A stretch of 64,000 bases of DNA from Halocafeteria seosinensis (taxonomy: Eukaryota; Sar; Bigyra; Bicosoecida), in NCBI GenBank assembly GCA_001687465.1, contig LVLI01000241.1:55012-119011 (forward strand). The letters are read 5' to 3'. A program made the position numbers and the translations under genes. Positions 9,012-13,175 of this stretch are shown one piece after another. Position 1 is the stretch's first letter. Each line of letters begins with the position of its first letter. The notes under the pieces were generated by a model that was not told the origin of the DNA, did not search any database, and worked only from the letters and a program-made list of their open reading frames with translations.

Positions 9012-10175
9012 CTAAGTAGGGTTCCCTTTCTGGAACACGGTACCGTTCACTTTTTCGGCTGTGGATTTGCCTTGGTTATAAGTCACTGGGGCCTGAATTC
9101 GCCGTGCTCCTTCATTTACACTCGTAGGGGCATGCTCCCCTCCCATTGACGTCCGTACCCAGCCGGGATCAGCAGCATTGCAAACTGATGACATCGAAGA
9201 CGAAATACAATGCTCGGTGGGCTGCAAGCTGCCGTGGAATACCCCCTCAATCGTAACTTACTTAATGTATCCTTTGGATACTTGGATGCGAGGAGTTCGC
9301 TCATTCGATTCAGAGCGGCCTTGCTGACTTTGTACGTCGGCTTGAACTCATCTGTAGAGAGGAAGTATTCGCTTGCAGATGGAGTACACCGACCAAACTA
9401 TGATAAAATGGTATGTCTACTCACCTTTCAACTCTGTATCTAATTCATCAAAGCACAGTTCCTCCAGAAGTTCATCGATCGTGTCGGCGTTCTGTATGCT
9501 TCGCTTGTAGTTGTTTGATAGGAAGCTCACGCTTCCGTATCCCGACGTGACATTGACAACCTCTAGGGGATGACCCTTTGGGACCAGACCAGCACTCTTG
9601 ATTTCTTCAATTAGCGCGAGCGGTGCACGAACGTTAGTTTGCATTGTCCGTTGGAAGACCGATTCTGACCAGCCGTCTTCGAAAATCTGTGAACATACCG
9701 AGGTGATGAGTCGCTGATGACTGTCGAAGGACATTCAGAATCGAGTTGAACAGTACTAACTCCGGCATTGTTGAATAAGTAGTCAACGCAGCTTGTTTCG
9801 TTCTTAACCTTTTCCACAAAACTGCGGATACTGGAGTTATCGAGCACATCAAGATCGTGGAACGTAACCGTTTGAGGTTCCTTAATATCTTTCCTCAACT
9901 CGTTCAAAGCCCTGAGAGTCAAAAACTCAAGAGGTGCGAATCAACTGGTAACTATTCGGGGTAATGCATCGGCCAGTACCTCTCTTTTAGGTGTGCCTGA
10001 CGAACACCACCTATTATGGTCGATACCTGATCGGCTTCCAAGAGTCGCTGGCACAAGCGAAACCCTGCAGGTTTTAGTAAGATGAAGAGAGTCACAGCAT
10101 TAAGTGGACCGTCAGCTGCAGCGACGTACCGAGTCCTCTGTTTGCCCCCGTGACAACAGCTACTTTTGAAGACAT
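9012..10175 (-). CDS. Short-chain dehydrogenase/reductase, carbonyl reductase-like
   Basis: A predicted NADP(H)-dependent oxidoreductase of the classical SDR family, most like carbonyl reductase 1 or salutaridine reductase. Exons: 10130-10175, 9980-10064, 9911 down to about 9745-9760, 9425-9686, 9262-9351, 9012-9184. The N-terminus has the Rossmann motif VVTGANRGLG. Next come FHDLDVLD (adenine-ring pocket), NNAG, the strand VVNVTSGYGS with the catalytic serine region, YKVSKAAL with the catalytic Tyr and Lys, and PGWVRTSMGG near the end. The 3' end of the third exon is ambiguous: donors at two or three phase-0 positions are possible. The substrate cannot be told from sequence. The gene is divergent from the RNA-repair gene. 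Confidence 0.87.
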
Positions 10176-10550: not shown

Positions 10551-13175
10551 ATGGAGTGGAAGTGGTCCCGAGGGTGCCTCTACCTCGAAAATGTGGACCA
10601 GTATGAGGACCCAATGCTTGTGAATTTCGCCCGCAACAACGAACTTCGTGAAACGACCAACAACTACACTCTGGAGGAGGTAACCCGAGATTGGATTGAC
10701 GCGGTTCCATCACAATTCCGTAATAACAGAGTGCTCCGTGACGGAAGTAATCATTGGCACATCACTGTGATCAATAGCATTGAGATGAAGGAAACGTGTG
10801 CTGTACACGATATAGAGACCATCCTGGCAAAGGACGGTGCTTCTGCGATTTCCGACCTCATCATTGCCGGAATGGGAAGAGTTTTTTCGAAAGAGTCTAC
10901 ATCGCCAGCGGAAAGCTATTTCCTTGTTGTTGTGTCTGAACAACTGAACCACCTCCGACATGAGTTTGGGTTGGACGACAGGTTGTTCCACATAACTGTA
11001 GGCTTCTCGTTTTCTGATGTTCACGAAAAAGCCAAGTCCCTGAACACTATTTTTAGACTCCCACAGCTTGCATACCAGAAGAAGACGATTCTAAGATCAC
11101 TCAGTTCTCCGGAGTCAATGACAAATCTCACTTATTTGCAGTGGCTGCTGAATACGGGAGACGCCCGGATACTTAAGGTGTTCTCTGAGGAAGTCGTTTC
11201 ATGCATCGCTCACATCCCAAAGCGTCATCCGTTGTACCAGCAAGCCCTTCATGTGTTGATGGAAGAACGGTATCTCGAAGGTTACTACTTACATTTCAAA
11301 CAGATGTCCCAGGGTTATAACGAGAAGCAAATCGTAGAATCGATGCAGGAACTATTGACATCGGCGAAAACACCACTCACTTATTGTCGAAAGGCTATGC
11401 CTCAGAAAGTACAGAAGGTGCTGAATTTTCCCATGCTTCAGGGGGAACCGTTAAGGAAGTGGTATCGATGGGGAGACGATGGGTACTTCCACACTCATCC
11501 ATTACCTCGAAATTTTTCTTGGATAGATTCGAATGTAGCAGGGTCTGGCATCCCTCACCGGAAAGAATTCTTGGAAACATTTGAAAAGATGGGCGTGTCA
11601 CAAATAATAACGCTAATGGAGGAGCCGTTAGCAGCCCATGTTTCATTGGATGGCCAGTTCAAGGAGATGGTTAACTTCTTCAACGTGACGGACAGACGCC
11701 CACCATCTGTCAAGCAGATGCATTCAATTCTTCAACTACTCCTTGGATCTTCGGGAAACACCGTTGTGCATTGTATGGGTGGCTATGGCAGGACGGCGAC
11801 GGTCCTCCTGGCGTACGTTATGTATGTACATCAGACGGGTTTCCAAGATGCAAAGAGATGGTTGGGTCGTCGCCCCTATAAACTAGACGAATCTCAAGAG
11901 TCGTTTTTAAAAGAGGAGTGGTATCGTGCGTGCAATGAAATTCGTGCTAGTGAGAAGGGGGGTCTCTCAACTGTCCAGAGAAACTCGAAGGTTAAACTCC
12001 CGTCATTGATCATGTTAATGGGCTTACCTGCTTCTGGAAAGAGCACGTTTGCGCAGTCCCTGGAAGAGCAGCTCAAAGAAGTTGTTCGTGTGAACCAGGA
12101 CGAGATCCGAAACAAGCAAACTTGTCATGAGATGGTCGGTCGCCACACGAAGGAGGGGAAGACTGTAATTTTGGATCGCTGCAATCCGACACGTAAGGAT
12201 CGCCAATGGTGGATGAAGTTGCAGATGGGATCTCGTGGGACTTGGAGTATTTACTTTGACACAACTGCAGAAGAGTGTAAGTGGCGGGTATCCCATAGGA
12301 AAGATCACCCTACGCTGAAAGCTTCAGCAGGGGCAAACGTAATTGACACATTAGCTCGGCAAATGGAACCACCTTCTAAAAACGAAGGCTATGACAAAAT
12401 GTGGAGTGTATCGAGTATTCAGGAAGCAAACTCATTATTGGAAGCGTGGGGTTGTACAACAGATCATTTGGAGGAACCGAATTATGACAATATTATCAAG
12501 TTTCCTCGCACCAGACACCTGTATAATTTAGGGGGAGCCTCAAGAGACGACTTACTATTTGACAGGTCTGAACAAGATAATTTTATAGCACATGAGCTCT
12601 GGATCGAAGAGAAAATTGACGGAGCAAATCTGGGCATCTCCGTTCAGAACTATGAGATCAAGGTACAGAATCGAAGTCACTATATAACTGCCTCAACGCA
12701 TCCTCAATTTAAGCTGATCAATGAATGGGTACATGAACACCGAGAGGATTTATGGGAGCTACTCGGTGATGGATCGACAATTCTTTATGGCGAATGGCTT
12801 TATGCACAACACTCGATTCCGTACACTGAACTTCCGGATTACTTTGTCGCCTTCGACGTGTATGACAAACGCGAGAAGCGGTTTTATAGCAGGAAACGAT
12901 TCGAAGAAGCTTTAAAACCAACATCGATAGCGACTGTTCCAGCCTTAGCTTATGGCAAGTTTTCATCATCTTCGGAGATATTGAAATATGTTCATCAACC
13001 ATCTCAATTTTACGAGGGTCCAGTAGAGGGTATCTACCTTAGAATCTGTACCGAACGGTGGCTCGAGCAACGTGCCAAAGTGGTTCGGGAGGACTTCCTG
13101 TCGGGAAATACCCATTGGTCTCATTATAGCATCACCCCGAATAGGCGTTCTGCCTCGTCCTACATCGCGAAATAA
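10551..13175 (+). CDS. Four-domain RNA end-healing and sealing enzyme (2H-DUSP-kinase-ligase)
   Basis: A single intronless frame of 874 residues. I chose the ATG at 10551; the frame is open further upstream but only a TTG lies there. The domains run in this order. First, a 2H phosphoesterase with both catalytic triads (HIT at residues 70-72 and 147-149), expected to open 2',3'-cyclic phosphates. Second, a dual-specificity phosphatase resembling DUSP23 (residues about 318-460), with HCMGGYGRT supplying Cys408 and Arg414 and a likely Asp381. Third, a P-loop polynucleotide kinase (GLPASGKST at 491-499, NQDEIRN, LDRCNPTRKDR). Fourth, an Rnl2-like RNA ligase (PRTRHLYNLGG, nucleotidyl Lys688 in EKIDGAN, YGEW, FVAFDVYD, VEGIYLR, and the motif V lysine in RAKVV). 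All key residues are present. Fungal and plant tRNA ligase runs ligase-kinase-2H, so this is the reverse order with a phosphatase added. It likely repairs or splices RNA, possibly tRNA; the substrate is inferred. Confidence 0.9.
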   Translation: MEWKWSRGCLYLENVDQYEDPMLVNFARNNELRETTNNYTLEEVTRDWIDAVPSQFRNNRVLRDGSNHWHITVINSIEMKETCAVHDIETILAKDGASAISDLIIAGMGRVFSKESTSPAESYFLVVVSEQLNHLRHEFGLDDRLFHITVGFSFSDVHEKAKSLNTIFRLPQLAYQKKTILRSLSSPESMTNLTYLQWLLNTGDARILKVFSEEVVSCIAHIPKRHPLYQQALHVLMEERYLEGYYLHFKQMSQGYNEKQIVESMQELLTSAKTPLTYCRKAMPQKVQKVLNFPMLQGEPLRKWYRWGDDGYFHTHPLPRNFSWIDSNVAGSGIPHRKEFLETFEKMGVSQIITLMEEPLAAHVSLDGQFKEMVNFFNVTDRRPPSVKQMHSILQLLLGSSGNTVVHCMGGYGRTATVLLAYVMYVHQTGFQDAKRWLGRRPYKLDESQESFLKEEWYRACNEIRASEKGGLSTVQRNSKVKLPSLIMLMGLPASGKSTFAQSLEEQLKEVVRVNQDEIRNKQTCHEMVGRHTKEGKTVILDRCNPTRKDRQWWMKLQMGSRGTWSIYFDTTAEECKWRVSHRKDHPTLKASAGANVIDTLARQMEPPSKNEGYDKMWSVSSIQEANSLLEAWGCTTDHLEEPNYDNIIKFPRTRHLYNLGGASRDDLLFDRSEQDNFIAHELWIEEKIDGANLGISVQNYEIKVQNRSHYITASTHPQFKLINEWVHEHREDLWELLGDGSTILYGEWLYAQHSIPYTELPDYFVAFDVYDKREKRFYSRKRFEEALKPTSIATVPALAYGKFSSSSEILKYVHQPSQFYEGPVEGIYLRICTERWLEQRAKVVREDFLSGNTHWSHYSITPNRRSASSYIAK

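Follow-up and report, generated by a model that had tools for sequence, protein, structure and literature searches.

In this study, which was based on a 64,000-nucleotide window of the genome of Halocafeteria seosinensis (contig LVLI01000241.1, positions 55,012 to 119,011 of the forward strand), we analysed a gene at window positions 10551 to 13175 whose product of 874 residues combines four domains of RNA end repair with a helical region. We consider it probable that this protein repairs RNA breaks as one polypeptide and belongs to the 'Swiss Army Knife' proteins with a Cys-phosphatase (PTP type), and that it would seal RNA ends of the diol type without leaving a scar. The original prediction, which was made from the letters of the DNA alone, had placed one 874-residue chain at these positions, and both its coordinates and its frame proved correct. 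It had also proposed that the chain has four RNA end-repair domains with intact catalytic motifs, which the profile scores, the structure models and the conservation all support, and the two catalytic residues that it had singled out, Cys408 in HCMGGYGRT and Lys688 in EEKIDG, are found at exactly these positions. Absent from that prediction were the helical region between the first two domains and the occurrence of the same combination in many other sequences, including viral ones. The gene and its parts are as follows.

10551..13175, plus strand: whole gene, 874 codons and a stop codon, intronless (open reading frame (ORF), transcript ORF P0002 and genome search)
10707..11024, plus strand: 2H phosphoesterase domain (2H-SAK), residues 53-158 (Pfam stretch), with HIT at 70-72 and 147-149
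11070..11438, plus strand: helical region, approximately residues 174-296 (secondary structure of both models)
11496..11954, plus strand: Cys-based dual-specificity-type phosphatase, residues 316-468, with Cys408 and Arg414 in HCMGGYGRT and Asp381 as the likely acid
11994..12455, plus strand: P-loop polynucleotide 5'-kinase, residues 482-635, with GLPASGKST, D517, D542 and R583
12486..13160, plus strand: RNA ligase (covalent nucleotidyltransferase), residues 646-870, with Lys688 in EEKIDG and a KFPRTxHLxNLG element upstream

The reading frame starts with an ATG at 10551, its stop codon ends at 13175, and an in-frame TTG would lengthen it to 10461. In what follows, P-numbers are labels of proteins (P0001 is the window protein) and L-numbers those of DNA loci or contigs. 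The EukProt ORF P0002, whose name points to a transcriptome record, also has 874 aa and an identical start, is marked as complete and differs from the window protein by eight substitutions. The four domains lie within one transcribed frame, as P0002 supports, and the transcript did not split the frame into separate genes, an outcome that the original prediction had named as one that would speak against it. A search of the whole genome (30.6 Mb, 605 contigs) revealed one full-length place, which is a 905-codon open frame with no stops, and one kinase-only place, which falls in a sequence whose translation, as judged by eye, reads as an ordinary PNKP gene. An artefact or a split gene was ruled out by the transcript ORF of equal length together with the single full-length open frame in the genome.

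All four domains scored above the curated Pfam cut-offs; the E-values given are those for the whole protein, and 22 families were listed up to an E-value of 1. The 2H-SAK family (PF22547) matched residues 53-158 (E 1.2e-15, 58.3 bits against a cut-off of 27) and the PTP-SAK family (PF22784) residues 319-436 (E 1.7e-13, 51.3 bits against 27), where the Cx5R signature is present; both segments were significant in the profile check that had been suggested for them. The kinase was matched by AAA_33 at residues 486-608 (E 2.5e-15, 57.5 bits against 27) and the ligase by RNA_ligase (PF09414) at residues 682-845 (E 5.2e-35, 121.5 bits against 27), with an additional PHROG RNA ligase match to the ligase domain (E 1.1e-20). 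The list of folds that was obtained with the model of the full protein consisted mostly of phosphatases, and residues 1-318 were therefore modelled separately. There were clear fold matches for the phosphatase, which shows the DUSP23 fold in addition to the Cx5R signature, and for the kinase, while Foldseek placed the ligase with the Naegleria RNA ligase 5cou (E 8e-8) and the archaeal RNA ligase 2vug (E 3e-7). The T4 Rnl2 equivalog TIGR02307 reached 16.3 bits against a cut-off of 197.15, and, as judged from its sequence matches, the ligase is Rnl2-like and no Rnl2 equivalog. Among the Pfam families that were listed at an E-value of 1, there was no HAD family, no methyltransferase family and no fungal/plant-type ligase family; tRNA_lig_kinase (PF08303), at 14.1 bits and E 0.053, stayed below its cut-off of 22.7. 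The helical region at residues 174-296 was not the best stretch of any Pfam family at the same limit. A profile of this region retrieved P0021, which had not been used in building it, and missed P0018, P0025, P0031 and the L037 protein, which indicates that the region varies; our guess is that it serves RNA or tRNA recognition.

The catalytic residues were highly conserved in an alignment of 32 rows, which comprised the window protein, 30 homologues and the 2H-phosphatase-kinase protein of the viral contig L037, with the permuted P0016 and the near-copy P0002 left aside. C408 and R414 of the phosphatase and K497, D517, D542 and R583 of the kinase were identical in all 32 rows, as was Gly at position 413. 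In the 2H domain, H70 and T72 were conserved in 31 of the 32 rows and H147 also in 31, while position 149 was T or S in 30 rows (P0008 has Val, and P0014 is without the 2H domain). Lys688 was present in 30 rows, and the other two rows, with gaps at this position, are the L037 protein, where the ligase domain is missing, and the truncated P0021. The ligase motif III-V residues E826, K843 and R846 were found in 29 rows, with gaps in the others, and E748 in 28 (three gaps and one Lys, in P0048). A uniform function of all of the homologues is argued against by two replacements, the Asn at the position of D381 in P0010-P0012 and the Lys for E748 in P0048.

We infer every enzymatic step that is proposed here, the order of the steps, the phosphate that is removed, RNA rather than DNA as the substrate and the biological role. 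The substrate would be an RNA that had been cut by a metal-independent ribonuclease, with a 2',3'-cyclic phosphate on one end and a 5'-OH on the other. The 2H domain would hydrolyse the cyclic phosphate to a monophosphate, probably a 2'-phosphate, which the DUSP23-like domain would strip before sealing to leave a 2',3'-diol, and the kinase would phosphorylate the 5'-OH. The Rnl2-like ligase would then adenylate itself on Lys688, activate the 5'-phosphate and seal it to the 3'-OH. As in T4 repair, this would yield an ordinary junction without a 2'-phosphate, and Tpt1 would not be needed. The simplest reading is that the pair of 2H domain and phosphatase may do the job of the single T4 phosphatase. 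Two papers describe phages and viruses that counter the cutting of host tRNAs with ligases and end-healing enzymes (PMC7824862, PMC9503650). Because of these accounts of viral tRNA repair, we propose a role in conflict, in which the substrates are likely to be tRNAs or other structured RNAs cut in virus-host or toxin conflict. The two relatives from Mimiviridae that are described below fit such a setting.

The genomic background bears on whether the enzyme might instead be a housekeeping ligase of the protist for tRNA or mRNA splicing, a reading that we regard as unlikely. The genome gave 55 tRNA matches, of which 35 loci were examined, five of them chosen for length. ARAGORN found 39 tRNA genes at these 35 loci and called introns in two of them, tRNA-Met(CAT) and tRNA-Tyr(GTA); in the Rfam alignment, tRNA-Ile(TAT), which has 93 nt, showed a lengthened anticodon-loop segment (the three odd loci are L149, L150 and L151). 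These introns, together with two splicing-endonuclease matches over the cut-off and the transcription of the gene (P0002), would suit a splicing ligase. However, the genome also encodes RtcB (three exon matches), which is able to do this job, and a second PF09414 ligase, which reads like the Naegleria type, and the family occurs in viruses too, which would be atypical for an essential splicing ligase. tRNA splicing exists in this organism, with an alternative ligase available, and the presence of RtcB as well as Tpt1 in the genome favours a role in repair over one in essential tRNA splicing. The original prediction had suggested a search for a separate Trl1, RtcB and Tpt1; the latter two are present, while the fungal-type (Trl1) ligase family gave no match in the genome, where the positive controls were likewise silent.

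The presence of Tpt1 is also important for the question of which phosphate is removed. It would be conceivable that the enzyme follows the route of the fungal and plant ligases, i.e., that it seals ends carrying a 2'-phosphate and that the phosphatase then clears this phosphate from the junction in place of Tpt1. The 2H domain of the yeast and plant tRNA ligases opens the cyclic phosphate to a 2'-phosphate-3'-OH end (PMC3400036), and the window protein is likewise predicted to have these healing and sealing activities. These ligases typically need that 2'-phosphate, which stays at the junction until Tpt1 removes it (PMC3400036). The dependence was reported for the yeast and plant enzymes, whereas the ligase here is of the PF09414 type; a standard Tpt1 is encoded in the genome, and in the split version on L037 the phosphatase stays with the 2H domain and the kinase, apart from the ligase. 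We therefore find this route quite improbable. The original prediction had left it open whether the phosphatase acts on a terminal or a junction 2'-phosphate; because the genome encodes Tpt1 and the ligase belongs to the PF09414 type, not to the 2'-phosphate-dependent fungal/plant type, it is more likely that the phosphate is taken off before sealing than from the junction, which makes a stand-in for Tpt1 the less likely reading.

The phosphatase could also be a regulatory protein phosphatase or a small-molecule phosphatase that is merely fused to a repair enzyme, since protein or general phosphatases are its nearest solved relatives in both fold and sequence. We judge this very improbable: 31 of the 32 rows have the phosphatase alongside the 2H domain, it remains with the 2H domain and the kinase where the ligase was split off (L037), and a 2H domain and a ligase of this type without the phosphatase would miss a step of the proposed chemistry. 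RNA triphosphatases of the Cys-phosphatase fold carry the signature HCTHGxNRTG. That the phosphatase is a 5'-end RNA triphosphatase acting with the nucleotidyltransferase like an mRNA capping enzyme has next to no probability: Foldseek listed the human capping enzyme 8w8f (600 columns, E 9.3e-7, TMq 0.14, root-mean-square deviation 18.8), but the poor superposition suggests shared domain types at most, HCMGGYGRT has a Gly at the Asn position of that signature (413) in 32 of 32 rows, and the C-terminal domain is a PF09414 ligase that is separated from the phosphatase by the kinase.

Returning to the proposed diol-type repair enzyme, its closest counterparts are the Swiss Army Knife families of Pfam, whose names reportedly go back to Burroughs and Aravind (2016 and 2023). 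Both healing domains of the window protein lie far above the cut-offs of these families (PF22547 and PF22784), which also occur in environmental proteins, in Bodo saltans virus and on one viral contig. The window protein, for its part, is encoded in a protist nuclear genome and includes a kinase, a ligase and the helical region. A phage 'Swiss-army-knife' family with a HAD phosphatase has been described (PMC7824862, PMC9503650); its phosphatase belongs to a different superfamily from the PTP-SAK domain found here.

In Trl1, the order of the domains is ligase, kinase and cyclic phosphodiesterase. The yeast and plant enzymes ScTRL1 and AtRNL resemble the window protein in that a 2H-type cyclic phosphodiesterase, a 5'-kinase and a ligase are joined in one chain (PMC3400036), but the window protein is reversed in order and has an extra phosphatase, and its ligase scores with PF09414, while PF08303 remains below the cut-off. 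The T4 enzymes Pnkp and Rnl1/Rnl2 are alike in the predicted chemistry, i.e., a 2',3'-diol and a 5'-phosphate are prepared and then sealed, and the Pnkp phosphatase produces the cis-diol end on which T4 ligation works (PMC3400036). T4, however, uses an Asp-based phosphatase and separate polypeptides (PMC3400036), whereas the window protein has a 2H domain and a Cys-phosphatase in one chain. In the bacterial Pnkp1-Rnl-Hen1 system, a kinase, a phosphatase and a ligase likewise act jointly on cleaved RNA, although that complex consists of three proteins and includes a methyltransferase (PMC4411300). The kinase domain is similar to that of PNKP (TIGR01663, E 1.2e-9; PDB 3u7g, E 8.4e-7), but with 37.2 bits TIGR01663 is far below its cut-off of 502.8, and another gene of the genome reads as PNKP.

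No biochemical study of such a four-domain chain was found among the papers listed by our searches, and those listed by one of these searches made no mention of a dual-specificity phosphatase. Since the domain kind had already been recognised from sequence, as the Pfam names show, this chain is an uncharacterised example and not an unforeseen one. The earlier statement that no characterised enzyme with this order was known agrees with our searches in that no such enzyme was found; the set itself is recognised in Pfam, and, P0002 aside, the four Pfam families occur together in at least 29 proteins, including one of Bodo saltans virus. Orthologues do exist, as the original prediction had considered, and none was found to be well described.

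All counts of family members are lower bounds, because scoring was restricted in two of the three protein searches to the candidates with the most words in common. The first protein search listed at least 29 proteins, 16 of which, P0002 included, have all four families, and the profile search listed at least 28, mostly those of the first. A search from residues 1-430 of P0009 listed at least 15 proteins; 14 were new, and all 14 have the four families. The order of the domains was placed using profiles cut from 15 rows (set A2), with P0035-P0048 not included in this placement. In 14 of these 15 rows, which match by construction, the order was 2H, middle region, phosphatase, kinase and ligase, while P0014 lacks the 2H domain. 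The remaining rows described here were outside the profile build. Among them, P0016 is permuted (2H, ligase, phosphatase, kinase). P0018 from Bodo saltans virus has the 2H domain, the phosphatase and the kinase and then ends within the ligase; the deposited protein has 649 aa and stops shortly after ligase motif I. P0021 terminates at the start of the ligase, P0025 and P0031 contain a 2H domain, a phosphatase and a short kinase match, and P0019, P0020, P0027, P0029 and P0030 have a ligase and a kinase and are without the 2H domain and the phosphatase. The 2H domain and the phosphatase co-occurred in 31 of the 32 aligned rows, the exception being P0014, which has no N-terminus, although the selection of the rows as relatives favours this result.

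The viral relatives showed that the set can be kept without fusion. On the IMG/VR contig L037 (30.9 kb), a 565-aa gene contains the 2H domain, the phosphatase and the kinase, and a 257-aa ligase gene on the opposite strand overlaps its 3' end in a convergent arrangement; the set stays together unfused, with the healing domains on one side of the cut and the sealing domain on the other. Together with the permuted P0016, this shows that the domain order varies while the set is kept. A comparison with the structures in BFVD ranked a Terrestrivirus protein first (A0A3G4ZM97, 859 aa, E 8.7e-63, full-length) and Bodo saltans virus second, and both viruses are placed in Mimiviridae, Klosneuvirinae. 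The viral_contigs and genome_contigs scans returned at least 56 and at least 34 loci, respectively, and among the matches listed, only L037 had a 2H domain and a phosphatase (profiles, ORFs of at least 80 aa). No relative was confirmed in the viral scans from P0018 and P0008. One of two DNA patterns gave 0 stretches and the other 4, of which only L037 had a 2H domain or a phosphatase by profile. For phage records (10 of 10) and plasmid records (the 20 listed of 34), the best places covered the ligase domain alone.

Phylogenetic trees were built for two parts of the chain. In the 2H-phosphatase-kinase tree (32 rows), the window row joined P0003-P0006 with a support of 100/99, and Bodo saltans virus and L037 lay across the midpoint from it. 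In the ligase tree (38 rows), from which P0002 and rows shorter than 150 aa such as P0018 and P0021 had been excluded, the L037 ligase grouped with P0010-P0012 (80/94) inside a 12-row group that holds the window row (94/95). Because the trees disagree on L037, the branches are long and most rows come from unlabelled environmental sequences, no direction of transfer, be it from host to virus or from virus to host, can be read from them. A more far-reaching view, which we put forward tentatively and consider doubtful as a whole, is that giant viruses have in common with a eukaryote a complete one-chain RNA repair machine that leaves the junction free of 2'-phosphate and in which a 2H domain and a Cys-phosphatase replace the single HAD phosphatase of the T4 type, that it would to our knowledge be the first case of a Cys-phosphatase acting on RNA 2'- or 3'-ends, and that the gene moved between protists and Mimiviridae in answer to RNA-cutting defences.

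The locus looks like host nuclear DNA because six of the ten larger window ORFs that were scanned match a family over the cut-off, including UTP10/BP28, CEP76 and TIMELESS; the scanned ORFs closest to the gene at 10551-13175 matched no family over the cut-off. The GC content of the gene is 46.3%, compared with 47.0% for the window and 46.1-46.9% for three neighbours. A viral insertion in the window was considered and found to be unsupported, given the families of the window ORFs and a GC content close to that of the window and the neighbours. On the minus strand at 9417-9922, short frames with an NNAG motif resemble, in a translation read by eye, a short-chain dehydrogenase that is broken by introns or frame changes.

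Domains of these kinds were also found in other contexts. An uncultured Caudovirales phage protein of 161 aa in BFVD (A0A6J5RQR0) is named 'Swiss Army Knife 2H phosphoesterase domain-containing protein', and the 2H domain seems to stand alone in phages as well. The same type of kinase is joined to HIT-family domains in P0022-P0024, P0026, P0028 and P0033 (precomputed Pfam), one of which is named aprataxin; these fusions are possibly another link to the repair of failed ligation. In four of the six plasmid regions that were fetched, the gene of a stand-alone relative of the ligase lies directly downstream of two others, which encode an AAA/DUF3696 ATPase and a 169-177-aa protein (Tistrella L141 4227-6687, Aeromonas L142 4068-6696, Azotobacter L143 4066-6684 and Rhodococcus L144 4104-6666), and the other two are without this arrangement. 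The Aeromonas pair, the only set that was scanned, matches PADLOC HEC-03B (E 1.1e-133) and HEC-03A (E 3.1e-23), a candidate defence pair. The RNA ligase in the position of a third gene suggests that HEC-03 cuts RNA and that the ligase has a protective or repairing role. In Lysinibacillus capsici (L096, 5004-6632), a P-loop kinase with an apparent HD domain is followed, in a unit of two genes, by a ligase with a PRSFHL element, as read by eye, and consecutive kinase and ligase matches were also present in L094 and L097.

The architecture is attractive and easily testable, and its split and permuted versions are natural designs for a dissection of the steps. If the proposed chemistry is true, RNA ends for which several enzymes are otherwise required would be converted and joined by a single recombinant protein, a benefit for methods that capture cyclic-phosphate RNAs, and Cys-dependent phosphatases would gain a new class of substrate. 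Moreover, since the enzyme occurs in protists as well as in giant viruses, the cutting and repair of RNA in infected protists would become directly testable.

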